Shown: one piece after another, positions 3,236 through 23,610 of the stretch | How the letters are laid out: each line of letters starts with the position of its first letter | How positions within the stretch are numbered: the first letter of the stretch is position 1 | Assembly (NCBI GenBank): GCA_902579115.1 | Contig: CACHFP010000003.1 | Span: 37,001-101,000 of the forward strand | DNA length: 64,000 bases | Reading direction: 5' to 3' | Source: an uncultured Pelagibacteraceae bacterium | Lineage (GTDB): Bacteria > Pseudomonadota > Alphaproteobacteria > Pelagibacterales > Pelagibacteraceae | The notes under the pieces: generated by a model | What the model was told of the DNA's origin: nothing | The model's database searches: none | Seen by the model: the letters and a program-made list of their open reading frames with translations, nothing else | Made by a program: the position numbers and the translations under genes

Positions 3236-4372
3236 ATGAAATACTGTAAAAATTGTATTATGCCTGACACAAGGCCTGACCAAATATTTGATGATAATGG
3301 TATTTGTAACGCATGTTTAAGTTTTAATAAAAATAATGAAATAAACTGGCCAGAGAGAGAAAACGAATTGAATGAAATTATTGATGAAGCAAAAAAAAGA
3401 AGTTCTTATTGGGATTGCGTTATTCCATCTTCAGGCGGTAAGGATAGCACTTATCAAGCTCTTTGGGCTAAATCAAAAGGCCTTCATCCTATCTTAGTTA
3501 CAGCCTCAACATGTGATCTATCAGAAGTAGGCAGAAAAAATCTAGATAATTTAAAAAAATTGGGATTTGACACTATTGAAATATCTAATGACCCTAAAAT
3601 TAGATCAAGATTGAACAAAATTTCTTTGGAATTGATTGGGGATATATCATGGCCTGAACATGTTTCTATTTTTACAGCTCCAATCAGATTTGCATTAAAT
3701 TATAAAATTCCATTAATACTATATGGAGAAAATCCTCAAATTGAGTACGGGGGTCCTAAAAAATCTTTGAGTAATTATATTCTTGACCGAAAGTGGATGG
3801 AAGAATTTGGAGGCTTAATTGGTTTAAGGGTAAGTGATCTTATAGAAATTTATGGTTTTTCAAGTAAAGAATTAGGAATATACTCTTATCCGAGTTCAGA
3901 GGAATTAGATAAATTTAAAATCAAAAGTATTTTTCTTGGATATTTTGAGAAATGGGACAGCTTGAGAAATTATAATAAAGCTAAGGAAAAAGGATTTACA
4001 GAGTATGAAAATCTAGAAGGGTGTTATTTCAATTTTGAAAAAATTGATAATTATCAACATGGAATTCATGACTATTTCAAATATTTAAAGTTTGGTTTTG
4101 GAAGGGCAACAGATCAACTTTGTTATTTAGTGAGAAGAGGAATTATATCTAGGGAGAGAGCTGTAAATAAAGTATACGAATTAGAGGGAAAATTTCCGGT
4201 TTCATATATGGGCAAATCAACAGAAAAAATTTTAGATAAAATAGGTTTAAGCATAACTGAATTCAAAAAAATATGTGATAAATTTACAAATAAAAAAATT
4301 TTTAAGACCGATCAGTCTGGTAAACTTGTTTTTGACGAAAAAGGAAATTTAATAAAAAAATATAGCATCTAG
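3236..4372 (+). CDS. N-acetyl sugar amidotransferase (WbpG/PseA-like)
   Basis: MKYCKNCIMPDTRPDQIFDDNGICNAC plus SSGGKDS; directly upstream of hisH/hisF-like genes. Confidence 0.9.
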   Translation: MKYCKNCIMPDTRPDQIFDDNGICNACLSFNKNNEINWPERENELNEIIDEAKKRSSYWDCVIPSSGGKDSTYQALWAKSKGLHPILVTASTCDLSEVGRKNLDNLKKLGFDTIEISNDPKIRSRLNKISLELIGDISWPEHVSIFTAPIRFALNYKIPLILYGENPQIEYGGPKKSLSNYILDRKWMEEFGGLIGLRVSDLIEIYGFSSKELGIYSYPSSEELDKFKIKSIFLGYFEKWDSLRNYNKAKEKGFTEYENLEGCYFNFEKIDNYQHGIHDYFKYLKFGFGRATDQLCYLVRRGIISRERAVNKVYELEGKFPVSYMGKSTEKILDKIGLSITEFKKICDKFTNKKIFKTDQSGKLVFDEKGNLIKKYSI

Positions 4373-4376
4373 CCGA

Positions 4377-5000
4377 ATGAATGAAAAAAGTACTTTTATA
4401 ATAAACTATGGAATGGGAAATTTAAGATCAGTAGAAAATGCTATAAAAAAACTTGGATTTAATTGCAAAATTGTAAGCAATCCTGAGGAACTAAACTCTG
4501 CGCAAAAAATTATTTTACCAGGTGTGGGCTCATTTAAAACAGCAATGCATTTACTTAATAGCGGTGGCTGGATTAATAAGATCAAATTCAATGTTCTTGA
4601 AAATAAAAAACCTTTATTTGGTATTTGTTTGGGCATGCAACTTTTGGCAGATTCAAGTGAGGAGTTTGGTTTATCAGAAGGATTAAAAATGATTCCAGGA
4701 AGTGTTAAAAATTTAAGAAATCTTGGTTGCAAACTTAAAATCCCCCAAATTGGATGGAACAATGTTTCAATAAAAAATACACATAAATACTTCGATGGAG
4801 TAAATTCTGACATGGATTTTTATTTTGTAAATAGTTACGTGTATGTCCCCGAAAATGAAACAAATATAATCGGCAGCACTAATTATGATTTAGAATTCTG
4901 CAGTGTAATAGCAAAAGAAAATATTTTTGGAACCCAGTTTCACCCTGAGAAAAGTTCAAAATCTGGACTTAAAATATTAAGCAATTTTCTAAATGCTTAA
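4377..5000 (+). CDS. hisH: glutamine amidotransferase subunit HisH paralogue
   Basis: INYGMGNLRSV, LPGVGSF, FGICLGMQLL, GTQFHPEKS motifs. Confidence 0.92.
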   Translation: MNEKSTFIINYGMGNLRSVENAIKKLGFNCKIVSNPEELNSAQKIILPGVGSFKTAMHLLNSGGWINKIKFNVLENKKPLFGICLGMQLLADSSEEFGLSEGLKMIPGSVKNLRNLGCKLKIPQIGWNNVSIKNTHKYFDGVNSDMDFYFVNSYVYVPENETNIIGSTNYDLEFCSVIAKENIFGTQFHPEKSSKSGLKILSNFLNA

Positions 5001-5763
5001 AAAAAGAATAATCACTACTATGCTTTGGAATGGAGAGACATTAGTAAAAGGAAATCAATTCATCAATTCAAGGAGAGCTGGCTCAGCTATTACAACAATA
5101 AAAATTTATAATTCAAGAGATGTAGATGAGATAGTTTTTTTTGACATAAACAAAAATGATTCAAAAGATAATTATGATTTAGATTTTATTCGACAATTAA
5201 CCGATGAGTGTAACGTACCAATTACAATTGGAGGAGGTATTAAAGAAATTTATCAAATTGATGATTTACTTTTTGCGGGTGCTGATAAAGTAAGTATAAA
5301 TTCTGAAAATTATTCGAATATTAATTTATTAAAATCAGCAGCTAAGAAATTCGGTTCACAAACGATTGTTGCCGCAATAGATTATAAAAAAATTGATGGA
5401 AATATAAAATGTGTGAGTAAATCTGGAAAAATAAAAGAAGAAGTTCATCCATTAGATTGGGCAGCCAAATGTGAAGACCTTGGCGCTGGAGAATTAATTT
5501 TAACTTCGATTGATAAGGACGGTTTAATGCTTGGATACGATTATGAGATTTTAGAACAGGTTTGTAATCGAGTAAACATACCTGTAATTATATCAGGTGG
5601 TGCTGGAAACTATACACATTTTCTTAAAGCATTTATGTCTGGAGCTTCAGCTGTAGCTGCGGCAAGTATATATCACTTCACCGAACAAACACCTTCTGAG
5701 GCAAAAAAATATTTATTAGAAAAAAATATTCCAGTAAGGCAAAATTTTAATTTTTCTTTTTAA
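4993..5763 (+). CDS. hisF: HisF-like cyclase paralogue
   Basis: TIGGGI, IDKDG, ISGGAG; overlaps hisH end; glycan rather than histidine context. Confidence 0.9.
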   Translation: MLKKRIITTMLWNGETLVKGNQFINSRRAGSAITTIKIYNSRDVDEIVFFDINKNDSKDNYDLDFIRQLTDECNVPITIGGGIKEIYQIDDLLFAGADKVSINSENYSNINLLKSAAKKFGSQTIVAAIDYKKIDGNIKCVSKSGKIKEEVHPLDWAAKCEDLGAGELILTSIDKDGLMLGYDYEILEQVCNRVNIPVIISGGAGNYTHFLKAFMSGASAVAAASIYHFTEQTPSEAKKYLLEKNIPVRQNFNFSF

Positions 5764-7837: not shown

Positions 7838-8476
7838 TTAATAGATTTTAATAATGTATTTTTTTCCTTTATATTCAAAATATGCTGGATATTTTTCATT
7901 ATCAACTATTCTTAGTAAATTAAAATTTTTTCTTAAACTGATATTTATGTCTAATTTACTATCTTTTGAATATCTTCGTCTATAATAGGTTGATTTGCCT
8001 ATTTGTTTTAATCTTTTAAAATTTGGATATTTTTTTAAAAATTTATTAATAATTTTGATAATTTCAACAGCTTGAATGTTTCTAAGTTGAGTATTTAATT
8101 CAGTGCCATTTAAAAAAAAGTGACCTCTTTCAATAATTGCTCCGCTATCAAATTTTTCATCTGCCTCTAATAAACAAATTGGAATTTTTGTTTTGTTTTC
8201 GAGAATTTGCCACTGTAATGGAGCAAACCCTTTCCCTTTTGGGAGGGCACTTGTATGAACTACAAGGTTTAAATTATTTTTAAGCAAGAAACTTTTTGGT
8301 AAAATTTTAGTATAATTTAAAATAAAAACAATATTTTGGTTTTTAATTTTTTTAAAATTACTTTCAATTTTAAAAAGATATCTTCTACTTTTCTTTTTAA
8401 ATGACTTATATAAAAAGTTTTTAATCCAGTCATTTTTCTCGTCAAAAAGAAAAGTTACTTTACTTTTTTTTTTCAT
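7838..8476 (-). CDS. formyltransferase-family protein next to PseI
   Basis: NLVVHTSALPKGKGFAPLQWQILENKTKIPICLLEADEKFDSGAI matches the formyltransferase fold; overlaps pseI by 4 nt. Confidence 0.72.
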   Translation of the reverse strand: MKKKSKVTFLFDEKNDWIKNFLYKSFKKKSRRYLFKIESNFKKIKNQNIVFILNYTKILPKSFLLKNNLNLVVHTSALPKGKGFAPLQWQILENKTKIPICLLEADEKFDSGAIIERGHFFLNGTELNTQLRNIQAVEIIKIINKFLKKYPNFKRLKQIGKSTYYRRRYSKDSKLDINISLRKNFNLLRIVDNEKYPAYFEYKGKKYIIKIY

Positions 8477-9519
8477 TTTAAAATATCTTCTAATTTTAAA
8501 GGATTAGCTCTAAACAGGTTTTTTTTTGCTTTCTTACCTAAAATTTGATTAAAGTATTTTGGGTGTAATCCAAGATTAGGCCTTATAACTTTTATATTTT
8601 TTTTTGTAAAAAGTTCGTTTTTTTTAATATTTTTTGAAATATAGATTGACCTTTTAAAAATAATAGAAGCTCTTTCAGATTTTGAAATTCCATAATAAAC
8701 TTTCCCTTTACTTTTCCAGGCACGTTTGGTTTCCACTACTAATTCTTTTAATTCTTTTGGGTTTATCGAAAAGGAGTCATCGAGACCTCCATCTTTTTTA
8801 TCCAAAGTAAAATGTTTTTCTATCAATACAGATCCAAACATTACTGATGCTATCGCCACGCCTATGCCCTCAGTATGGTCGCTTAAGCCTACATTTATTT
8901 TGAATCTTTTTCTTAAATCTTCAATACACTTCAAGTTAGTATCTTCTTCAGGCGCAGGATAAGAACTTGTGCATTTTAGTAAAACAAAATTCTTAAATTT
9001 CTTTTTTTTAAAATTTTCAATAATAAACTTGATATCATTAAGTCTTGTAAGCCCAGTTGAAATAATGATTGGTTTTTTTAAACTTATTAATTTTTCTATG
9101 AGTGGAACATGGTTATTTTCAAAAGATGCAACTTTGTACAAAGGACATTTCAATTTTTCTAAAAAATTAACAGCTGTCTCATCAAATGGTGTGCTAAAAC
9201 ATGTTATTTTATTTTTTTTTGCTCTCTCAAAAACCGCTTTATGCCATTCCCAAGGAAGAGAACCTTTAGAATACAATTCGTATAAATATTTTCCAAACCA
9301 TAAACTTTTTTTATTATTTATCAAAAAATCTTTTTTTTTTGATTTTAAAGTTATTGTGTCGGGTTTATAAGTTTGGATTTTAATTGCATCTGCTCCGGCG
9401 TTCTTAGCTGCATCAATTAATTTGAGCGTTCTATTAAGACTATTATTATGATTAGCAGAAATTTCAGCTACTATAAAAGGAGGTTTTCTTTCAGAAATTT
9501 CTCTTTTACCAATTTTCAT
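8473..9519 (-). CDS. pseI: pseudaminic acid synthase (NeuB family)
   Basis: IVAEISANHN, DAIKIQTYKPDTITL, PWEWH, CFSTPFDETAV, ISTGL, GLSDHTEGIGVA; C-terminal SAF-like region. Confidence 0.88.
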   Translation of the reverse strand: MKIGKREISERKPPFIVAEISANHNNSLNRTLKLIDAAKNAGADAIKIQTYKPDTITLKSKKKDFLINNKKSLWFGKYLYELYSKGSLPWEWHKAVFERAKKNKITCFSTPFDETAVNFLEKLKCPLYKVASFENNHVPLIEKLISLKKPIIISTGLTRLNDIKFIIENFKKKKFKNFVLLKCTSSYPAPEEDTNLKCIEDLRKRFKINVGLSDHTEGIGVAIASVMFGSVLIEKHFTLDKKDGGLDDSFSINPKELKELVVETKRAWKSKGKVYYGISKSERASIIFKRSIYISKNIKKNELFTKKNIKVIRPNLGLHPKYFNQILGKKAKKNLFRANPLKLEDILK

Positions 9520-10172
9520 TATTTTATTATAAATTTAAGTTTTTTATCAAATTTTGTAGCCTGAATATTTAGTTTTAATTTATTTTTTTTAAAAAAATCA
9601 CGTACAGCTTTTGTTGCTCCATCTACTTTACCATAATCGTCAAGTAAAATTATGCCTCCTTTTGATACGTTTTTATAGAGCCTTTCAAGAGCAAATAAAG
9701 TTGGCTTATAAACATCTAGATCTAAATGCAAAAAGGAAATTTTGATTTTTTTATTTTTTTTTATAAAAACATCTAAAGTTTTTTCAACACGTCCTTTAAT
9801 TAATTTAAAATTAGTATAATTTTTTCTTTTAAAAACCTTATTTAATTTCACCAATTCAGTCCCAAAACCAATGTTTTTATTATGATTTTTAGCAAAATTA
9901 TCATCTTTTTTATTTTTTTGATTGGGGAATTTTCCAAATACGTCAAATCCATATACTTTTTTTTTCACTGATTTAAATAAAAGATCTCTAAAAATTATAA
10001 ATCTCGAAATACTATTACCTTTAAAAACACCACATTCAATTATAACACCAGGTACTTTAAGAGTTTTTTTGAATATTTCGAAATGATTTATTATTTTTTT
10101 AATTCTGGAAGGATGGGAATATCTATAAAACTTATTTTCTATTTCCCAACTTTTAAGTTCGTTATTTACCAT
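9519..10172 (-). CDS. TylF/MycF-type O-methyltransferase
   Basis: IIECGVFKGNSI, LHLDLDVYKPTLFALERLY, GGIILLDDYG. Confidence 0.75.
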   Translation of the reverse strand: MVNNELKSWEIENKFYRYSHPSRIKKIINHFEIFKKTLKVPGVIIECGVFKGNSISRFIIFRDLLFKSVKKKVYGFDVFGKFPNQKNKKDDNFAKNHNKNIGFGTELVKLNKVFKRKNYTNFKLIKGRVEKTLDVFIKKNKKIKISFLHLDLDVYKPTLFALERLYKNVSKGGIILLDDYGKVDGATKAVRDFFKKNKLKLNIQATKFDKKLKFIIK

Positions 10173-10182
10173 TTTATAATTT

Positions 10183-11760
10183 CTAAAAAAAATGATCAGC
10201 GCCTATAAACCCAGCATTTGATTTTTCAACGTACCACCCATTTACAAAAGGGTTATCGCTTTGAATAGTTACCCAACCAGTTTTATTTTTTAAAAATTTT
10301 TGAATCTTTTTATTTTTATTAAGATCAAACCAATAACTTCCATTGTTTTTAATTAGCATTTTTTTTCTTAAAAATTTACTATCCAATTCATTCCAAAAAT
10401 TTAAAACAACATTTGCTTTTTTATTTTTATTTTTAAGATTGCTTGTATTAGAGATAATAAAATAAGAGTTATGTTTATTCAATATAGGTGCCCATTTGAA
10501 TGTACCTGGTTTTGTTAATACTTTTGAGTTCGGAACATGGGCGTTAAAACAAATATTTGAAGGAACATCAAATTTATTTTTAAACCCTAAATTTAAACCA
10601 AATTTCAATCTTGTTGGAACCTTACCATTCCCATCAACTATAAGTTTTATTAGATGATCTTTCTTATAATTTATTTTAATATTATCTTTATTTAAAATTT
10701 TTTTGATATCTAAATAGATTGGTTTATTGAGCTTATTAGATATTTTGAGAACTGAATTCAATTTTTTTATTTTGATACCAGTATTATTATAGATTTCTAA
10801 ATTAAATTTAACATTACATTTAGGAAAATTTGGGTAAACAACTAGTTCTGTATAAGATTTTTTATTTTTAAAAAGAGGAAATGAAACCGAGGAGTCATAA
10901 AAAATATTTTTATTTGGATTTGGCCAAAACGCATTTTTATCTTTTTGCTTTGAAGTATCGTAGTAAGTATGTGTTAAAGAAGAATTATAGAAATTTTGTT
11001 GAATATTTCCTGAAAGAAACCTAGGAAAAAAATTTGTAAAATTATGTTTAATTTTAACAGTTGCTTTTTTTTCTCTTAAAAACTTTTTTTCATTATCATT
11101 TAAAAAATACACAAATTTTGTTTCATAAGGTTTTAGATCTTTTAAAATAATTATTTTTGTAAATTCTTCACCCAGGTAATTTATAACTTTTATTTTTAAT
11201 GCAGATTTTTTAATTCTAGACTTACCATTTACAAAAGAGAAAAAAGGAATGAAATCCTTATTAGGTATTATATCAATACCAGTCTCTAAAACTTTTTGTT
11301 GATTATTTTCTAAAAAATCTTTTCTATTATTATAAATTCTTCCACAAGTATGTACAACAGCAGAGGAGTCTTTTCCTTGGTAATTGACAACTAAAGCAGG
11401 ATAAGGATAAACCATATTTTTATCTGATAAAATTTCAAGCTCAATTGAACCAGATTTAAATTTTGTTCCAGATTTAAATTTAAGAATTTTTTTTAATGAA
11501 ATTGAAAAAGCTTTTACTTGATTAATTGTTTGAACACTTTTTTTAATCAAAATACCCTCTTTTGACCTTATGCTAATATTTAGAGATACTTTTTTGATAT
11601 TTCTTTTTATCAACCAATAACCCATAAATAGTATTTTTGTGTCTAAACTATCGTTAATAATAAAAGGAAAAATAGCTGAGGATCTTAAAACTTCATTATT
11701 TCCCGATATTTTAGGATTTTTAATATTTGTAGACGATAGATGTGCTTGATAGCTTTTCAT
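10183..11760 (-). CDS. protein of unknown function in pseudaminic-type cluster
   Basis: Long ORF (track start 11790; MKSYQAHLSS at 11760 looks more likely); no family recognised. Confidence 0.7.
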   Translation of the reverse strand: MKSYQAHLSSTNIKNPKISGNNEVLRSSAIFPFIINDSLDTKILFMGYWLIKRNIKKVSLNISIRSKEGILIKKSVQTINQVKAFSISLKKILKFKSGTKFKSGSIELEILSDKNMVYPYPALVVNYQGKDSSAVVHTCGRIYNNRKDFLENNQQKVLETGIDIIPNKDFIPFFSFVNGKSRIKKSALKIKVINYLGEEFTKIIILKDLKPYETKFVYFLNDNEKKFLREKKATVKIKHNFTNFFPRFLSGNIQQNFYNSSLTHTYYDTSKQKDKNAFWPNPNKNIFYDSSVSFPLFKNKKSYTELVVYPNFPKCNVKFNLEIYNNTGIKIKKLNSVLKISNKLNKPIYLDIKKILNKDNIKINYKKDHLIKLIVDGNGKVPTRLKFGLNLGFKNKFDVPSNICFNAHVPNSKVLTKPGTFKWAPILNKHNSYFIISNTSNLKNKNKKANVVLNFWNELDSKFLRKKMLIKNNGSYWFDLNKNKKIQKFLKNKTGWVTIQSDNPFVNGWYVEKSNAGFIGADHFF

Positions 11761-11780
11761 AATATGGTAATGTACAAAAA

Positions 11781-11809
11781 TTGAACACAAAAGTAAATAT
11801 AACTATAAT
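11781..11809 (+). promoter_or_regulatory. putative promoter TTGAAC-17 bp-TATAAT upstream of pseB
   Basis: -35 at 11781-11786, -10 at 11804-11809, exact 17-bp spacer; -10 ends 2 nt before the ATG. Confidence 0.5.
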
Positions 11810-11811
11810 CA

Positions 11812-12807
11812 ATGTTTAACAATAAAAATATAATAATAACAGGTGGAACAGGGTCTTTTGGTAAAGAGTTTGTTATTTATTTGCTTAAAAATTATAAACC
11901 TAAGAAAATTGTTATATTTTCAAGAGATGAATTAAAACAATTTGAATTTTCAAATTACTTAAAAAATAAAGCTTTCAATTTAAAAAAAGTTCGTTTTTTT
12001 ATTGGAGATGTTCGGGATAGAAGTAGATTAAGTCTTGCTTTTCAATCGATGGACTATGTAGTACACGCAGCTGCGCTTAAACAAATTGTTGCCGCAGAGT
12101 ATAATCCGCAAGAAGTTGTGAAAACAAATATTGAAGGCGCTCAAAACATAATTTTTTCAGCCTTAGATCAAAATGTTGATAAAGTTATTGCTTTGTCAAC
12201 CGATAAAGCTGTTAATCCAGTAAATCTTTATGGTGCAACAAAACTCGTTTCTGATAAATTATTTATAAATGCAAACAATTTAGCAGGTAAAAAAAGAACA
12301 AGATTTTCTGTAGTTAGATATGGTAACGTAATTAATTCAAGAGGTTCAGTAATTCCTTTCTTTAAAAAAACAGTAATTCAAAAAAAATTGTTTCCAATAA
12401 CTCATAAAAAAATGACAAGATTTTTTATAAAAGTAGATGATGGAGTGAAATTTGTTATAAAATCTTTTAGCAGAATGTTAGGCGGTGAGATCTTTATTCC
12501 CAAAGTAGACTCAATAAAAATTATAGATATCGCTAAAGCTATAAGCTCAAATACTAAAATAAAAATTGTTGGAATAAGGCCAGGTGAAAAAATGCATGAA
12601 GTTTTATGTCCTCAAGATGAAGCGCATTTAACTCTAGAATTTAAAGATCATTACGTTATTAAACCTTCAATTGGATTAGAGATCAAAAATAATTATCAGA
12701 TTAATGCAATAAGAGAAAAAGGTAAAAAGGTGTCTGAAAGTTTTGAGTACTCGTCAAATCTCAATAAATTTCTTTCAATTAAAGACATTAAAAAAATTAT
12801 CAATTAA
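11812..12807 (+). CDS. pseB: UDP-GlcNAc 4,6-dehydratase (inverting), PseB-like
   Basis: MFNNKNIIITGGTGSFGKEF, FSRDELKQFE, AAALKQIVAAEYNP, STDKAVNPVNLYGATK. Confidence 0.93.
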   Translation: MFNNKNIIITGGTGSFGKEFVIYLLKNYKPKKIVIFSRDELKQFEFSNYLKNKAFNLKKVRFFIGDVRDRSRLSLAFQSMDYVVHAAALKQIVAAEYNPQEVVKTNIEGAQNIIFSALDQNVDKVIALSTDKAVNPVNLYGATKLVSDKLFINANNLAGKKRTRFSVVRYGNVINSRGSVIPFFKKTVIQKKLFPITHKKMTRFFIKVDDGVKFVIKSFSRMLGGEIFIPKVDSIKIIDIAKAISSNTKIKIVGIRPGEKMHEVLCPQDEAHLTLEFKDHYVIKPSIGLEIKNNYQINAIREKGKKVSESFEYSSNLNKFLSIKDIKKIIN

Positions 12808-12812
12808 TTTGT

Positions 12813-13496
12813 ATGCAAGTTGCAATAATACCAGCGAGAGAGAAAAGCCAAAGAATTAGAAATAAAAACCTAGTTAATTTTTTGGGCAAGCCAATAATTT
12901 CTTGGCCTATTACAATGGCAAAAAGGAGTAAAATCTTCGACAAAGTTATAGTATCAACTGATAGTAAAAAAATTTTAAGTATCTCAAAAAAATTTGGAGC
13001 AGAAGTTCCTTTTTTGAGACCAAAAAAAATTTCTGACAATCAGACAGGGATCATAGAAGTTGTAAATCATGCCATAAAATTTTTAGAGAAGAAAAAAATT
13101 AGATTTAAATATGTTTGTTGCATTTTTGCTACCGCCCCCTTATTAAAAAAAAAAACTATTCAACAAGCACTTAATTTACTCAGAAAAGGCGGATATGATT
13201 TTGTTTTTGGAGCGAACAAAATTGATTCAAAATATTTAAGATCTTTTTATATAAAAAATAATAAATTGTATATGCTCGACAAAAAATTTTATTTTACCCC
13301 AAAAAAACCTTATCCATCAACTTATTTAGATTCAGGACAATTTTATTGGGGAACGAAAAATGCTTGGAAAAAAAATAAAATAATTTTTACTAAAAATTCA
13401 AATTTTATTCTTCTAAATCATAAAAAATTTGTAGATATTAATACTTATAAAGACTTGGAAAAAACAAGACAAATTGCAAAAAAATACAAAATATGA
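12813..13496 (+). CDS. pseF: pseudaminic acid cytidylyltransferase
   Basis: IIPAREKSQRIRNKNLVNFLGKPIISWPI, VSTDSKKI, YLDSGQFYWG. Confidence 0.85.
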   Translation: MQVAIIPAREKSQRIRNKNLVNFLGKPIISWPITMAKRSKIFDKVIVSTDSKKILSISKKFGAEVPFLRPKKISDNQTGIIEVVNHAIKFLEKKKIRFKYVCCIFATAPLLKKKTIQQALNLLRKGGYDFVFGANKIDSKYLRSFYIKNNKLYMLDKKFYFTPKKPYPSTYLDSGQFYWGTKNAWKKNKIIFTKNSNFILLNHKKFVDINTYKDLEKTRQIAKKYKI

Positions 13497-13832: not shown

Positions 13833-14162
13833 ATGAAAGTCTATAAAAGAATTAAGCCGAGAAAATTTTTAGTAAGCAAAAAGAATAATATTATTCTTAA
13901 AGACGTTGGAAAAATATTTTTAAATGAGAATGAAAACTTAACAATAACTTGTAAAGAACAAAAAGATTTTGAAATTTGTAGAAAAGAGTGGGGCTACTAT
14001 GCAACACCATCTTTGAATTTTCGATTAAAGAAAAAAGGTCTTAAAGCGGTTTTAGTAAAACAAAAGTTAAAATATTTCATTCTACTAGTCGATGTAAGAA
14101 AGAGAAAAAAATTTAAAGATTACATAAAAATTGAAAATTACAAAATTATTAAATGGTTCTGA
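13833..14162 (+). CDS. small protein of unknown function
   Basis: 109 aa ORF in glycan operon; CRKEWGYYATPSLNFRLKKKGLKAVLVK; no family assigned. Confidence 0.6.
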   Translation: MKVYKRIKPRKFLVSKKNNIILKDVGKIFLNENENLTITCKEQKDFEICRKEWGYYATPSLNFRLKKKGLKAVLVKQKLKYFILLVDVRKRKKFKDYIKIENYKIIKWF

Positions 14163-14172
14163 AATTTCTGAG

Positions 14173-15957
14173 ATGGTAAAAAAAAAAGAGAATTATTTAA
14201 TTTGTACAAGACTTACAGATACCTTTCCAAAAAAAAATAATGCAATTTTAAATTTTGTATCAGAAGCTGCATTATCCTCTTTCTCTAATTATTTTGAAAA
14301 TAAAAATTATAGTATTAATAGTTCTCAGTGGGTTGATAAAAAGATATTACTTAACGATTTTAATTACATAGATAATATTTATAACGAACTACTACCGCAG
14401 ATAAAAGAGTTTTTAAATAAAATTCATGGTCATAAATTCTCTCTTAGATTTTGGAGAATACTCGTAGGTCCTTGGCTTGGTATTTTTATTTTTACTTTAT
14501 ATGACAGATGGAAAAATATTGAGTCTGCATCAAAAAATTTTAAAATCGATAAGCTAATAAAATTAAATTTTAATGAAGAAAACTTTGTTCCTTATGATAA
14601 TAAAGATTTTTTAGGTTTTATACAAAACGATGTTTGGAACCAAAATTTGTATCAAACTATGTTTGACGAGTTTTTTAATCTAAATCAAATTGGTGTTTTA
14701 AATTTAGACTCAACAAAAATCGAAAAATTATTTAAAAAATTTGACGTAAAACCCAGTCCAAAGAGTTTTCTGGTAAAAAGTATTTTTAAATTTTTTAACA
14801 TTTTTTCAAAAAAAAAATACAAGTACTTGCTTTATAGTACTTATACTGGCTTTTGGAATGAAATTAAATTATCATTTTATTTTAATCAATTACCCATTTT
14901 TATTTTTAAGATTGATAAATACAAAACAGAAAAACAAATAAATTCTGAAATTCGTGAAAGAATGTTTCTAAATTTCAACGAAAAAGACAAATTTAAAAAT
15001 TTTTTATTAAAATCAATATCAATGCAGATGCCAAAAGTATTTATTGAAAATTTTAACGATTTAGAAAAATTTTCATCGCTAGAAAACTTACCAGCAAGCC
15101 CAGAAAAAATTGTTACCGCAAATGCACTTTGGTTTGATAGTTTTTTTACTTATCATGTTGCAAAGTTAACTGAAAAAAATTCAAAAATTATATATATTCA
15201 ACATGGTGGCGCGTATGGTATTTCAAAGTATAGCTGGCCAGAAGAACATGAAAAAAACATTTCTGATAAATATCTCACATGGGGCTGGAAAGATGAAAAA
15301 TTTAAATCTAAAACTAAAAAATTTTATGTAATTCTTAAAAAGAAAAAGTTTTCTTGGAATGAAAAAAAAATGAAAAATCTTCTTATTTTAATGAGACCAA
15401 GAAAAGCTTATTTCCAAACACCTGAAACATCGTCAGTAGGTATAGAACCATATTCAAATTATATTAAATTTTGCGGAAAATTTCTTAAGTCAGTATCTAA
15501 TGAGATTAAAAGTAAAACAGTCTTACGTTTCCCATTTGAAAATGTCAGAAGAGAATCATTTGATCTTTTTTCAAAATTAAAAAATTATAAAGTAGATAAC
15601 AAAGGTTCTTTCGAAGAAGCATGTAATAATTCAAAAATTATTATTAATACTGCTAATTCAACCACATTATGTGAAACCATCTCAAACAATATACCTTCTA
15701 TTTTAGTTATTGATAAGAATACTCCAATAAGAGAAAATATTTTACCGATTATTAATAATTTAGAATTAAATAATTTGCTTTTTTTTGATCCATTTAAAGC
15801 AGGAAATTTTATAAACGAAATTTGGGATAATGATATTAAACAGTGGTGGTTTAAACCAGAAACTCAAAGCACATTAAATTTTTTTAGAGAACATTTAGCA
15901 AGACCAAGTAAAGATATTGCATCAGATTTGGCAAAAGAAATTAACTTAGATATTTAG
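14173..15957 (+). CDS. LIC12162-family transferase-like surface carbohydrate protein
   Basis: LICTRLTDTFPKKNN...RFWRILVGPWL...IIYIQHGGAYG...; track start at 14131 overlaps the previous gene, internal MVKKKENYLICTR at 14173 preferred. Confidence 0.72.
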   Translation: MVKKKENYLICTRLTDTFPKKNNAILNFVSEAALSSFSNYFENKNYSINSSQWVDKKILLNDFNYIDNIYNELLPQIKEFLNKIHGHKFSLRFWRILVGPWLGIFIFTLYDRWKNIESASKNFKIDKLIKLNFNEENFVPYDNKDFLGFIQNDVWNQNLYQTMFDEFFNLNQIGVLNLDSTKIEKLFKKFDVKPSPKSFLVKSIFKFFNIFSKKKYKYLLYSTYTGFWNEIKLSFYFNQLPIFIFKIDKYKTEKQINSEIRERMFLNFNEKDKFKNFLLKSISMQMPKVFIENFNDLEKFSSLENLPASPEKIVTANALWFDSFFTYHVAKLTEKNSKIIYIQHGGAYGISKYSWPEEHEKNISDKYLTWGWKDEKFKSKTKKFYVILKKKKFSWNEKKMKNLLILMRPRKAYFQTPETSSVGIEPYSNYIKFCGKFLKSVSNEIKSKTVLRFPFENVRRESFDLFSKLKNYKVDNKGSFEEACNNSKIIINTANSTTLCETISNNIPSILVIDKNTPIRENILPIINNLELNNLLFFDPFKAGNFINEIWDNDIKQWWFKPETQSTLNFFREHLARPSKDIASDLAKEINLDI

Positions 15958-17288
15958 CGATAGCTACTAAGATAATTTATGTTTTTAAGATTATTAGAAA
16001 TTTTTCCTAGCTTGATAAGATTTTGTTTTTTTTTGAGTTTGTAAGAAAAAATATTAGAGTAAATTTTTTTCTTTTTCAGGCTTGGCCATAACTTTTCAGA
16101 AAATATATCTAGTTGAGGATCATCGCTTATATGTATTACATTAAAACCATTTTCTAAAGCTTCAATAATAGCCCCAGAAATTCCAATGAAAATCAAAGAA
16201 TTTCTTTTAGTTTTTTTAATTCTTTGATTTTTAAGTGATTTGATTAATCTTTTTAAATGCTCAACTAATAAATCATTTTTTTTAGTATCAACAATAAGTG
16301 GATGACTTTTGATGCTAAACTTTTTTAAATTTAAGATCTTTTTACTATGTAAAGTTTCTAAACTTTGAAATACCTTTTTTTTATTTAAGATTGATAGTGG
16401 TAAAAAAATTTTATTTTTTATTTCTGAATTAAAACTGTTAAATCTAAATGAAGGTAAAAAAATTATTTTCGATCTTTTCCAACCTAAAAATTTTACAAAA
16501 CAATATAATTGATCCTTTCCGCAAAGAATAATTTTATTCGGAGAACTTTTTTTGTAAATAAAATTATATGGTGCAGCCATTGGTGGTGAATGAACATATC
16601 CAATACTTGTCGTATTTTTAAAATTTTTGGAAATATATCCTAACAACTTATTTTGAAAAACTTGACCTTCATAAGCAATTAGTACAATGCTTGCTTTTTC
16701 ACTAAAAAATTTTTTAACTTCATTAAAAAAAATGTTAGCAAAGAAATTCTGATTTGAAATAGATGAAAAAAAGAGTTTTTTATCTTTAGTCAGAAGATGT
16801 AAATTCATAAAAATCAATTTTAAAATTGGAAAAAAATTAAAACTAATTTTTTCAAAAGGCTTAATAATAAAAATATTTTTTTGTGTTTTCTCTGGTAGAT
16901 TTCTGCCTTTATAAATTATAATCCAAAGAGCATCATCCAAGTCTCTAGAATTTATTTTGAAGTATCTATCAAAAAATGAACCGTCTTTCTTAAAATCATT
17001 TTCAAATCCCCAAGTGATGACTATTCTTTTGTAATTTAAATAATCTTTATGTGAAGAAATTTTATAGTTAATGTAATTTAAACTGTATAAGGTTTCTTTT
17101 ATAACAGTAATTAAATTAGAAAAAAAACCCTTATTACTGCCAAGAATTGATTTTAAAATCATAACACCTAGATTTGAATTCGGGCTAAGATAATGTAGGT
17201 AACCGTTATCGGTAGTCCTGTTTTCCTTCAATTTCTGAAAATAATCTTTTACTTTTTTAAAAAAATCTTCTTGCTTCAACGCATTCAT
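15954..17288 (-). CDS. putative glycosyltransferase/capsule-type protein, function unassigned
   Basis: YVHSPPMAAPYNF...KIILCGKDQLYCFVKFLGWKRSKI...IGISGAIIEALENGFNVIHISD resembles GT-B-like capsule proteins. Confidence 0.5.
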   Translation of the reverse strand: MNALKQEDFFKKVKDYFQKLKENRTTDNGYLHYLSPNSNLGVMILKSILGSNKGFFSNLITVIKETLYSLNYINYKISSHKDYLNYKRIVITWGFENDFKKDGSFFDRYFKINSRDLDDALWIIIYKGRNLPEKTQKNIFIIKPFEKISFNFFPILKLIFMNLHLLTKDKKLFFSSISNQNFFANIFFNEVKKFFSEKASIVLIAYEGQVFQNKLLGYISKNFKNTTSIGYVHSPPMAAPYNFIYKKSSPNKIILCGKDQLYCFVKFLGWKRSKIIFLPSFRFNSFNSEIKNKIFLPLSILNKKKVFQSLETLHSKKILNLKKFSIKSHPLIVDTKKNDLLVEHLKRLIKSLKNQRIKKTKRNSLIFIGISGAIIEALENGFNVIHISDDPQLDIFSEKLWPSLKKKKIYSNIFSYKLKKKQNLIKLGKISNNLKNINYLSSYR

Positions 17289-17295
17289 ATTTTTC

Positions 17296-18408
17296 TTAAT
17301 ATTCTGTAAGCCTGAGAAAATTAAAAGTTTTTTGAATTTTTGCTGGTAAAAAATTCCAAATATTTCTTGCTATTACACCTCGCCTTGTAGGTTCGCCAAA
17401 ACATTTCTTACAGGTTTCATGTTTTGGAAGATTTTTAGTTCTTAAATTGTTTAAGAAATTTTTACTATTTTCAAGAATTTGTTTCATATTTAATTCATTT
17501 ATTTTTCCCATCGAAATACTTCCATCATAAGCTAAACAACAAGGCACAACATTGCCATCGGCTAATATTCCTAAAATACTACTATTACAACTAAAATTAT
17601 CATTGATAGCGTAAAATTCACTTATTCTTCTTCCATAAAAAAAAGGTTTAATTTTTAGAGTTATATTTTCGAATATCCTATACCCATCTTGTTTTAAATA
17701 ATTTCTAGAAAAAATTTTTTCAACATCTTTTAATTTTTCTAAAGATTTTTGATATTTTTCATCTGAGATATCGTAAAAATAATTCAGAAATTTTGCAAAT
17801 AAAAGACTTGAACTCATTAGGTCTTTAGGCACTGATGGGTCACCAACTTGAATACCGAGAATTTTTTTTAAGTAATAATTTAATTTTTTATCGTTAAAAT
17901 TACATCCTAAATCAATATCTATCTTGATATGTTTAAAATTTTTCGCTTTGGTACAAAATTCTATAATACTTTTTACGTACCTATCCAGTTCCATGTTAAG
18001 GCCTCTTGCGTCTTTATGTTTATTTGCGTCTAAAACTTGTAAAGAAATTTTTATATTAGTTCCAAATTTTAGTAAATTTTCAACATTTTTTTCTTTGTTC
18101 AATAGAAGACCATTGGTAATAAACAAAACCGGGATTTCATTTACTTTACAGAATTCTAAAATCTCGAAAATTCTTCTATCTAACAATGGCTCATTAAATT
18201 GAGAAAAAGTAACGTACTTAAAATCTTTGTCTTTAAAGTCAATACTTTTAAGAGTATTAAAAATATCTTTTAACTCTAATTTAGAAACTTTATCGTCTTT
18301 TAATGGATATGGACAAAAGGAACATGCCATATTACATGCCGCAGTACTTTCTATTTGCAATACGTCAAAGCCATATTGTGTTAGTTTCAGTTTTTCTAAA
18401 TTACTCAT
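17296..18408 (-). CDS. radical SAM protein with SPASM-like C-terminal domain
   Basis: CNMACSFC (CX3CX2C); C-terminal CNSSILGILADGNVVPCC...CKKC. Confidence 0.85.
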   Translation of the reverse strand: MSNLEKLKLTQYGFDVLQIESTAACNMACSFCPYPLKDDKVSKLELKDIFNTLKSIDFKDKDFKYVTFSQFNEPLLDRRIFEILEFCKVNEIPVLFITNGLLLNKEKNVENLLKFGTNIKISLQVLDANKHKDARGLNMELDRYVKSIIEFCTKAKNFKHIKIDIDLGCNFNDKKLNYYLKKILGIQVGDPSVPKDLMSSSLLFAKFLNYFYDISDEKYQKSLEKLKDVEKIFSRNYLKQDGYRIFENITLKIKPFFYGRRISEFYAINDNFSCNSSILGILADGNVVPCCLAYDGSISMGKINELNMKQILENSKNFLNNLRTKNLPKHETCKKCFGEPTRRGVIARNIWNFLPAKIQKTFNFLRLTEY

Positions 18409-18425
18409 AATTTAAAATATTTTTA

Positions 18426-19541
18426 TTATTCATGCATTGCTTTGAGAATAGTCTCATTTAAATGATCATAGTCAATTATCTCTTTAATCCTAGATTTTTG
18501 CAATCCCCCTATGGAAATAAATCTAGGATTTTTTCCAGCTCTTTTTTTGTCTAAAAAAATATTCTTATATATAGAGTCTTGCAAAACATTTTTACTAAAA
18601 GGTATTTTATTTAAGTAAATTTTTGTAGGCAAATTATATTCTTTTAAAAGATTTTCAATAGTACAAAAAATCTTTTCCTTTCTCTTTTTTTCATAAAATA
18701 CTTCGCACAACATCCCAATACCAACTGCTTCTCCATGCCTGATGAAATCCCTTTTCAATTTTTGTTCAATGGCCATCTCTATAGCATGCGCAAAAGTATG
18801 TCCAAAATTAAGAGATAACCTCGTGTTTTTCTCGTGAATGTCATTTAAAAAGAATTTGATTTTGGTTTTTAAAGTAAGATAACAAAGTTTAAAAACAACG
18901 CTCGTTTCTCGTTCGATTACTTTCTTTTTTGAGTTTTTTAACAACTCTAAAATCTTATTTTCACCAATAATTCCACATTTAATAATTTCAGCAATTCCTG
19001 CAGTGAATTCTCGATCAGGTAAGGTTTTGATTATTTTTTCTAAAATAAATACAGCTTTAGGATGATAATAAGTTCCAATTGAATTAGTGATGCCTTTATA
19101 ATTTATCGCAGTTTTACCACCAATCGAACTATCAACAATTGAGGTCATAGTTGTAGGAATACAAAAGTAATTGAGTCCTCTCAGGTATAAACTACTTGCT
19201 AAAGCTGAAACATCTCCTAAAACTCCACCACCAAAAGACACTATAATCGAGTTTTTTGTGAAACTATTTTGTAACAAAATATCGAGAATCTTGAACAATA
19301 ATTTTTCATTTTTGTTCAGTTTTTCAGAAACACACTCTATTTTAAGAATATTACATCCAGTAATTTTTAATTCTGACAATATTTCTCTTACTATTTTTTT
19401 TTCAATATTTCTATCGTAAATAAAAAGTATATTTTTGTCAGAATTTATTGAATTGATAGTTTTAGATATTGTTCCTTTATAATTTGAGCGACAAAAAATC
19501 ACAGAATGCTTAGATTTGTTTATTTTATATTCGAGTTTCAT
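18426..19541 (-). CDS. 3-dehydroquinate synthase-like sugar phosphate cyclase
   Basis: SFGGGVLGDVSALASSLYLRGL, PTTMTSIVDSSIGGKTAIN, LPDREFTAGIAEIIKCGII, LNFGHTFAHAIE, HGEAVGIGM. Confidence 0.85.
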   Translation of the reverse strand: MKLEYKINKSKHSVIFCRSNYKGTISKTINSINSDKNILFIYDRNIEKKIVREILSELKITGCNILKIECVSEKLNKNEKLLFKILDILLQNSFTKNSIIVSFGGGVLGDVSALASSLYLRGLNYFCIPTTMTSIVDSSIGGKTAINYKGITNSIGTYYHPKAVFILEKIIKTLPDREFTAGIAEIIKCGIIGENKILELLKNSKKKVIERETSVVFKLCYLTLKTKIKFFLNDIHEKNTRLSLNFGHTFAHAIEMAIEQKLKRDFIRHGEAVGIGMLCEVFYEKKRKEKIFCTIENLLKEYNLPTKIYLNKIPFSKNVLQDSIYKNIFLDKKRAGKNPRFISIGGLQKSRIKEIIDYDHLNETILKAMHE

Positions 19542-19564
19542 CCTTATTAATAAAATTTAAAATA

Positions 19565-20338
19565 TTATTTATAAAATTTAAAATATTTATCTTTTTTTAT
19601 TTTAATTTGTGCTTTTGAATAATCCTCAAACACATCTACCGAAAAACTATCACCTTTTAAATTAAGATTTTTAATTTTCAAACCTATATCTAACGCTCTT
19701 AAAAGCTCAATATCCTCTATTTTTTCAATTTCACTTAATCTACTTTTTCCATACATTATAAGTGCTTGAGGCTTGAAAGAAATAATAGATAAATGTTTTT
19801 TTAAATTCTTTGATTTATTTTTAAATTCGTAAGGAATATTTGCTCTTGAGATGTACATTACTTCATTTTTACTATTTGAAACCAATTTTACTAGGTTTGT
19901 ATTATTAGTAGGCTTAACTTTTAAACTTGGAAGTACAATATCAGCATCTAAATTTTTCTCGTGAAATTCTACAACTTTATCAATGTGATTTGGACTTATT
20001 AGCGGTTCATCTCCTTGTACGTCAATCACAAATTTATATTTTTTATTATTTCCGATTTTTTTAAAAGCCTCACAAATTCTCTCAGTACCGTTTCGGTGAT
20101 GTTTAGAAGTCATTATTACTTTTGCACCATACTTTCGTACTTCTCTCTGAATTTTTTTATCATCACAACAAATATAAGCTTCCTTTATTTTTTTTGATAA
20201 TAAAGTCCGTTTGTAAACATGCATTATAAGTGGCAAATTATTAATTGGTAGAAGAGATTTTGCCGGTAATCTTCTCGAATTAAGTCTAGTAGGAATTAAA
20301 GCTAAAACATTATTTTTCTTTTTCATGATCTCAACCAT
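19565..20338 (-). CDS. KdsB-like (CMP-Kdo synthetase family) cytidylyltransferase
   Basis: ALIPTRLNSRRLPAKSLLPINNLPLIMHVYKRT, GTERICEA, VIDVQGDEPLIS, ISRANIPY, IEDIELLRALDIG. Confidence 0.85.
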   Translation of the reverse strand: MVEIMKKKNNVLALIPTRLNSRRLPAKSLLPINNLPLIMHVYKRTLLSKKIKEAYICCDDKKIQREVRKYGAKVIMTSKHHRNGTERICEAFKKIGNNKKYKFVIDVQGDEPLISPNHIDKVVEFHEKNLDADIVLPSLKVKPTNNTNLVKLVSNSKNEVMYISRANIPYEFKNKSKNLKKHLSIISFKPQALIMYGKSRLSEIEKIEDIELLRALDIGLKIKNLNLKGDSFSVDVFEDYSKAQIKIKKDKYFKFYK

Positions 20339-21057
20339 CCTCCATCTACATTAATACTCTCACCAGTAATGTAATTTGAATAATCTGACAATAAAAAGCT
20401 AACAACTGAAGAAATTTCCCCAGACTCGCCCCATCTGTTTTGAGGTATCTTAGATATAGTCCAATCATACAAAGATTTATTTTTTTTAAATTTTTCAAAA
20501 TATGAAGTTTTTATAAATCCAGGATTAACAATATTTGCTCTAATTTTTTTTGCATACTCCACAGCAAAACATTGAGTCATACTTTTTAAAGCGCCTTTGG
20601 TCGAACTATACCCACTTAATTCATTAAAACCTGTTTCTCCAACTATTGAACCAATATTTACTATTGAGGAATTAATTTTATTTTCATCACAAAACTTTGC
20701 ATATAATCTCATTATTCGAAAAACTGAGAAAAAATTAATATCAAACACATCTTTTATTTTTTTGTCGCTTATTTTTTGAAATTTTAGTCTTTGTCTAATA
20801 CCCGCATTATTAACCAAACAGTTAATTATTTTTTTGTCTTTGATAGATTGTTTAAAAATTTTGTTAATCAACTTTATATTTCTGACATCTCCCAAATAAA
20901 CTTTAAAATTTTTAAGATTTTTAAACTTATTAATATCGGATCTACTCCGAGTGATACCATACACAAATGCACCTGATTTAACAAAACTTTCAACCATATT
21001 TTTTCCCAACCCTTTTCCAACACCGGTTACAAGTATATTTTTATTTTTGAGAAACAT
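20323..21057 (-). CDS. SDR family oxidoreductase
   Basis: VTGVGKGLGKNM, NNAGIRQRL, GYSSTKGAL, NPGFIKT. Confidence 0.85.
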   Translation of the reverse strand: MFLKNKNILVTGVGKGLGKNMVESFVKSGAFVYGITRSRSDINKFKNLKNFKVYLGDVRNIKLINKIFKQSIKDKKIINCLVNNAGIRQRLKFQKISDKKIKDVFDINFFSVFRIMRLYAKFCDENKINSSIVNIGSIVGETGFNELSGYSSTKGALKSMTQCFAVEYAKKIRANIVNPGFIKTSYFEKFKKNKSLYDWTISKIPQNRWGESGEISSVVSFLLSDYSNYITGESINVDGGWLRS

Positions 21058-23491: not shown

Positions 23492-23610
23492 TGCCTGGTA
23501 ATTATTGCGAAGGGGCCACACCCGATCCCATTCCGAACTCGGAAGTTAAGTCCTTCAGCGCCGATGGTACTTTGTCTTAAGATACGGGAGAGTAGGACGT
23601 TGCCAGGCTT
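23492..23610 (+). rRNA. rrf: 5S ribosomal RNA
   Basis: tgcctggt...cccgatcccattccgaactcggaagttaag...agtaggacgttgccaggctt; termini pair as in 5S helix I. Confidence 0.95.

Follow-up and report, generated by a model that had tools for sequence, protein, structure and literature searches.

A Conserved SDR–KdsB–AroB Gene Trio in a SAR11 O-Chain Cluster: A Candidate Route to a CMP-Activated Carbocyclic Acid

What brings relatives of a shikimate-pathway cyclase and of the transferase that activates 3-deoxy-D-manno-octulosonic acid (Kdo) together in one operon within a surface glycan cluster? The question is raised by positions 15954-21057, minus strand, of a 64,000-nt stretch of contig CACHFP010000003.1 from an uncultured Pelagibacteraceae bacterium (this whole stretch is hereafter the window). 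Five tightly packed open reading frames (ORFs) encode, in order, an SDR, a KdsB-like protein, an AroB-like protein, a radical SAM/SPASM protein, and a 444-aa protein. The SDR and KdsB-like genes overlap by 16 nt, and the remaining gaps downstream measure 23, 17, and 7 nt. An earlier, sequence-only reading described these as five same-strand, closely spaced genes, a layout borne out by the ORF coordinates, the Pfam families, and the recurrence of the order elsewhere. It also took all five for one pathway unit. In this it went too far, as only the SDR, KdsB-like, and AroB-like genes (the trio) are conserved together, which leaves the radical SAM and 444-aa genes outside the core. That the trio is a dedicated route to a cytidine monophosphate (CMP)-activated carbocyclic analogue of a 3-deoxy-ulosonic acid, destined for the O-chain, is given an even chance.

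Co-conservation of the trio and its distinction from housekeeping genes

Close relatives of the AroB-like protein are present in 8 further genomes among 297 of the order (46–59% identity), with the next matches at 41% and lower. In all nine SAR11 loci reached via AroB (9/9; the 8 close ones and one whose AroB is at 35%), the order is likewise SDR-KdsB-AroB. For an independent test, two KdsB motifs, blind to AroB, were scanned over 85,462 genomes, yielding 72 loci. In half of these (36/72), KdsB is directly preceded by the SDR and followed by AroB, counting locus L073, in which AroB lies at +4 from KdsB; the other 36 are without this arrangement. The equal split is a property of the motif-selected sample, in which many loci are single-cell fragments, and weak unrelated SDR matches a few genes off were disregarded in the trio counts. 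A single partner (SDR or AroB alone) beside KdsB occurs in none of the 72 loci except L062, at a contig end. The trio genes mostly overlap or stand within ~10 nt of each other, and their hosts comprise SAR11, other alphaproteobacteria, Prochlorococcus, and Nitrospina. Thus, the co-conservation in other genomes that the sequence-only reading called for is found for these three genes, in fixed order in 36 loci of several phyla.

The recurrence of this order is far beyond chance. O-chain clusters are highly diverse (PMC11898729), and the genes flanking the trio vary between loci, both of which would suit chance neighbors in a fast-changing genomic island; however, the trio stays intact while the surrounding genes change, which refutes that explanation and leaves it a negligible probability. 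An AroB profile search in a 399-genome sample of the phylum revealed no further trio, and three other strong matches were without adjoining KdsB or SDR; therefore, the trio appears rare outside the host groups named above. Locus L073 is from a record titled Euryarchaeota MAG (metagenome-assembled genome) NAT11 but has SAR11-like trio proteins, and its archaeal filing is probably a binning error.

The genome harbors separate housekeeping copies of both aroB and kdsB, answering a check that the earlier reading had proposed. The second 3-dehydroquinate (DHQ) synthase shares 36% identity with the operon protein and passes the curated model TIGR01357 (345.5 bits; cut-off 305), whereas the AroB-like protein fails it (259.4). 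Likewise, the housekeeping KdsB passes TIGR00466 (172.9; cut-off 155.2) and the KdsB-like protein does not (142.1). The trio copies in L058, in Prochlorococcus (L095), and in Nitrospina (L102) also score below both cut-offs. A role of the operon genes as the sole housekeeping copies is ruled out by the second genes that pass these models. Two DHQ synthases are found in 14 of 18 trio genomes, while among 18 genomes without the trio, 16 have one and 2 have no match.

In the cyclase tree, a placement also suggested by the sequence-only reading, the AroB-like proteins form one branch (Shimodaira–Hasegawa-like approximate likelihood ratio test support, 99), apart from 51 DHQ synthases that include the housekeeping copies of the same genomes. 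By sequence, the AroB-like protein is a paralogue of the housekeeping DHQ synthase of its genome. One could still propose that it serves as an additional DHQ synthase to increase flux through the shikimate pathway, that the KdsB-like protein likewise duplicates CMP-Kdo synthetase, and that their linkage arises from general polysaccharide needs. The mostly intact DHQ-synthase active site would fit this, as would the nearest solved structures, which are DHQ synthases and CMP-Kdo synthetases. However, the fixed order across phyla, the separate branch, the scores of both operon proteins below cut-offs that the housekeeping copies pass, and the altered Kdo pocket described below render it quite improbable. 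The evidence supports a pathway of its own, separate from the housekeeping synthesis of shikimate and Kdo.

Active-site residues of the trio proteins

The AroB-like family was aligned in the E. coli (Ec) frame (37 members), with positions named by their Aspergillus nidulans counterparts. R130, D146, K152, N162, E194, K197, K250, R264, N268, H271, H287, and K356 are kept in all or nearly all members. These are presumably the metal, phosphate, and carboxylate sites of DHQ synthase, and their retention would fit a carboxylated, phosphorylated substrate. The operon protein thus resembles DHQ synthase, of the sugar phosphate cyclase superfamily, in fold family (PF01761 and PF24621) and catalytic positions but differs in its TIGR01357 score, its own branch, the loss of K161 and Ec Gln134, and its location in an O-chain cluster. 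Among solved structures, DHQ synthases match it at 96–168 bits, in contrast to 85–92 bits for DOIS, EVS, and EEVS. The EEVS/DOIS/DDGS secondary-metabolite cyclases offer a parallel in which an AroB homologue feeds a nucleotide-activated carbocycle, as in acarbose biosynthesis (PMC9200736). Activation there is GDP-based, whereas the trio has a CMP-transferase. Another uncharacterized AroB paralogue family, TIGR04425 (AroB-related putative sugar phosphate phospholyase, cyclizing), was considered, and membership was rejected (181.4 bits; cut-off 400).

The KdsB-like clade keeps the cytidine triphosphate (CTP)/Mg residues Ec R10, R15, K19, Q98, D100, and D235. It also shares R157, H181, E210, and R213 with CMP-Kdo synthetase, and the 1gq9 group is its best-scoring solved structure by sequence. 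It differs from that enzyme in G183, replaced by Ser, and in its pocket, where all trio members have Ile or Val for Tyr185 and Leu for Gln211, in addition to its score below the TIGR00466 cut-off. Tyr185 and Gln211 are Kdo-pocket positions of CMP-Kdo synthetase. The glutamine equivalent to Gln211 is listed as an active-site residue in the Haemophilus influenzae template (PMC12058783). The KdsB motif scan itself selects for positions 185 and 211; however, the nine SAR11 loci, reached via AroB and not via the KdsB motif, show the same changes independently. In the SDR, the two arginines of an NAGxRxR motif are invariant in 36/36 aligned members.

The proposed route and its alternatives

In loci without the trio, the same KdsB clade is paired with a HAD phosphatase in 27 loci, mostly immediately downstream, and no HAD phosphatase was found in the trio loci of the motif-scan sample. 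Loci with and without the trio are mixed in the KdsB tree, with at least 4 changes forced by the branches starred there and 8–9 on the best tree; hence, the partners have been swapped. Because the phosphatase never accompanies the trio, the cyclase and SDR may replace it, which suggests that HAD hydrolysis and AroB elimination with ring closure plus SDR reduction are alternative ways of removing phosphate from a ulosonic acid phosphate before CMP activation. The known routes to Kdo, 2-keto-3-deoxynononic acid (Kdn), and nonulosonic acids, in which a HAD phosphatase precedes the CMP-transferase, share the KdsB step with the trio, and the same KdsB clade has a HAD partner in sister loci. They differ from it in that the trio loci have the cyclase and SDR in place of a phosphatase.

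Neither KdsA nor a synthase for 3-deoxy-D-arabino-heptulosonate 7-phosphate (DAHP) was found in the searched clusters, whereas a type II DAHP synthase is encoded elsewhere in the genome; DAHP would thus be available from core metabolism. Among trio and non-trio loci alike, only a minority have NeuB homologues.

The following route is proposed with respect to substrate, order of steps, carbocyclic product, and transfer. The AroB-like enzyme would start from a 3-deoxy-2-ulosonic acid bearing a phosphate, for which DAHP, supplied by the shikimate pathway, is the simplest choice. DHQ-synthase-type phosphate removal with closure of the carbocycle would afford 3-dehydroquinate or a stereoisomer. The SDR would then reduce the ring ketone to give a quinate-like acid, and the KdsB-like enzyme would join CMP, from CTP, to the hydroxyl beside the carboxylate, the equivalent of the anomeric hydroxyl of Kdo. 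A glycosyltransferase of the cluster, perhaps the 444-aa protein, would finally place the residue on the O-chain. As a carbocycle, 3-dehydroquinate corresponds to a 3-deoxy-heptulosonic acid; its reduced form could therefore be a substrate for a KdsB relative whose pocket has changed. The sequence-only reading had held that the operon makes and activates a carbocyclic or otherwise unusual sugar acid for the cell surface. The dedicated pathway, its cross-phylum co-conservation, and its surface glycan setting stand, and residues and context suggest, less firmly, that the product is a carbocyclic CMP-acid.

Several observations weigh against this route. K161 and Gln134 are lost in the AroB-like family, and A. 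nidulans His275 (the Ec His251 position), the proton-relay histidine of DHQ synthase (PMC7144000), is kept in 73% of members, including the window copy; hence, the substrate may not be DAHP. Its replacement in about a quarter of trio members hints that the family may not share a single chemistry. A carbocyclic tertiary-alcohol CMP ester lacks anomeric activation, making ordinary glycosyl transfer hard, such that the route would require either an unusual transferase or elimination-addition via an enone, with CMP on dehydroquinate. The mutual exclusion of HAD and trio is below significance (sign test p 0.25, from 4 switches on well-supported branches and none in the opposite direction), and the KdsB relatives in L050, L052, and L054 have neither an AroB nor a HAD partner nearby.

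Some of these points bear on an alternative in which the product of the trio is a ulosonic acid that is unusual (deoxy or branched) but has no carbocycle, such that the AroB-like enzyme oxidizes its substrate and eliminates phosphate, and KdsB activates a true anomeric hydroxyl. The anomeric CMP ester makes transfer easy to explain, the loss of K161 and Gln134 is in keeping with it, and the occurrence of the same KdsB clade beside HAD and, in a few loci, a NeuB homologue implies that the substrate may be an ordinary ulosonic acid. This alternative is considered unlikely, though a serious contender to the carbocyclic route.

A further candidate is a route resembling that to 8-amino-3,8-dideoxy-D-manno-octulosonic acid (Kdo8N), which employs KdnA and KdnB, the latter an Fe-ADH type dehydrogenase encoded beside kdsB. 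The AroB-like protein would then act as KdnB on unphosphorylated Kdo, a notion encouraged by the adjoining KdsB and by the superfamily that DHQ synthases share with iron-containing ADHs. However, the protein matches DHQ_synthase at 3e-32 and Fe-ADH_2 at 3.4e-05, the latter below its cut-off, and was rejected as a member of that family. In addition, the phosphate-site residues are kept, and a class I/II aminotransferase lies near 8/36 trio loci only, which makes a Kdo8N-like route very improbable.

Two side observations concern the non-trio loci. Around KdsB, L074, L080, and L071 have an alternative module of a NeuB-like protein, the KdsB-clade protein, and a HAD phosphatase, which is likely a second CMP-ulosonic acid pathway. 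In L050 (5261-6517) and L054 (2206-3447), a gene close upstream of a KdsB very near that of the window, with neither AroB nor HAD nearby, encodes a protein that, by eye, begins with a weakly MaoC-like domain and ends in an SDR-like part.

To the extent that the literature on quinic and other carbocyclic acids in O-polysaccharides and on aroB plus kdsB clusters was searched, largely without subscription papers, no precedent for the trio and no description of a CMP-activated carba-ulosonic acid as a nucleotide sugar was found, nor was a chemical structure of a SAR11 O-chain. The broader claim that an AroB paralogue, an SDR, and a KdsB paralogue build such a residue for the surface glycans of several abundant marine bacteria is tentative, with somewhat less than an even chance. 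Few cells in the ocean are as abundant as those of SAR11 and Prochlorococcus. If the claim is true, shikimate-type chemistry would be linked to O-chain synthesis, and evolution would have exchanged a phosphatase for a cyclase next to one and the same CMP-transferase clade. A carba-ulosonic acid would be an activated sugar of a new class, and resistance to ordinary glycosidases would be expected. The common three-gene module can be expressed and assayed, rendering one surface building block directly testable.

Genomic setting and neighboring genes

The source genome is SAR11-like, ~1.0 Mb, and 93% complete, and the named relatives of the KdsB-like protein are mostly from Pelagibacteraceae single-cell genomes. 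The Pelagibacterales O-chain biosynthesis cluster is defined by its location between 16S-ITS (internal transcribed spacer)-23S and 5S rRNA, and such clusters differ strongly among strains (PMC11898729). The operon lies between these landmarks, with 16S/23S rRNA to the left of the window (contig C3:20280-24947) and 5S rRNA to the right of the operon. On the cluster side of the window, the GC content is 24–27%; to the right of the cluster, it is mostly ~29–33%. The main text of PMC11898729 makes no mention of aroB, kdsB, dehydroquinate, or cytidylyltransferases.

Table 1. Features of the operon and its surroundings (window coordinates)
Feature	Position	Strand	Length	Assignment
SDR oxidoreductase	20323-21057	-	244 aa	First gene of the trio; Pfam adh_short_C2 1.7e-46
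KdsB-like CMP-transferase	19565-20338	-	257 aa	Pfam CTP_transf_3 2.5e-44
AroB-like sugar-phosphate cyclase	18426-19541	-	371 aa	Pfam DHQ_synthase 3e-32, DHQS_C 2.2e-27
Radical SAM/SPASM protein	17296-18408	-	370 aa	Accessory; Pfam Radical_SAM 1.5e-14, SPASM 2.6e-11
444-aa protein	15954-17288	-	444 aa	No Pfam/NCBIfam family; predicted GT-B-like fold (weak matches); candidate transferase
LIC12162 family transferase	14131-15957	+		TIGR04331, 326 bits; convergent neighbor, surface-polysaccharide context; outside the trio
5S rRNA	23494-23608	+		Right-hand landmark of the SAR11 O-chain cluster

All five operon genes recur in order in L058, the only locus with a close radical SAM relative; other radical SAM matches are weak. 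The 444-aa family is found in 18 loci at most 4 genes from KdsB, in trio and non-trio settings alike. No solved structure was matched by its sequence. Its predicted model is confident (predicted local distance difference test score 85) and gives weak GT-B matches, with a best E-value of 2.4e-4 and template modeling scores of ~0.27–0.37 for the better ones. By association, it is the best candidate transferase for the CMP-activated residue.

Pseudaminic acid genes lie beside the operon (7838-13496), comprising PseB and PseF (NCBIfam matches above cut-off), a NeuB-like synthase, and a possible formyltransferase. The same O-chain cluster harbors two HisF/HisH-like sets with N-acetyl-sugar amidotransferase-like proteins (L047 14573-15978 and 16948-18099; window 3236-5763), which, assigned by eye, suggest two separate amidino or amide sugar modifications. 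Relatives of the LIC12162 family transferase are located near KdsB in several loci.
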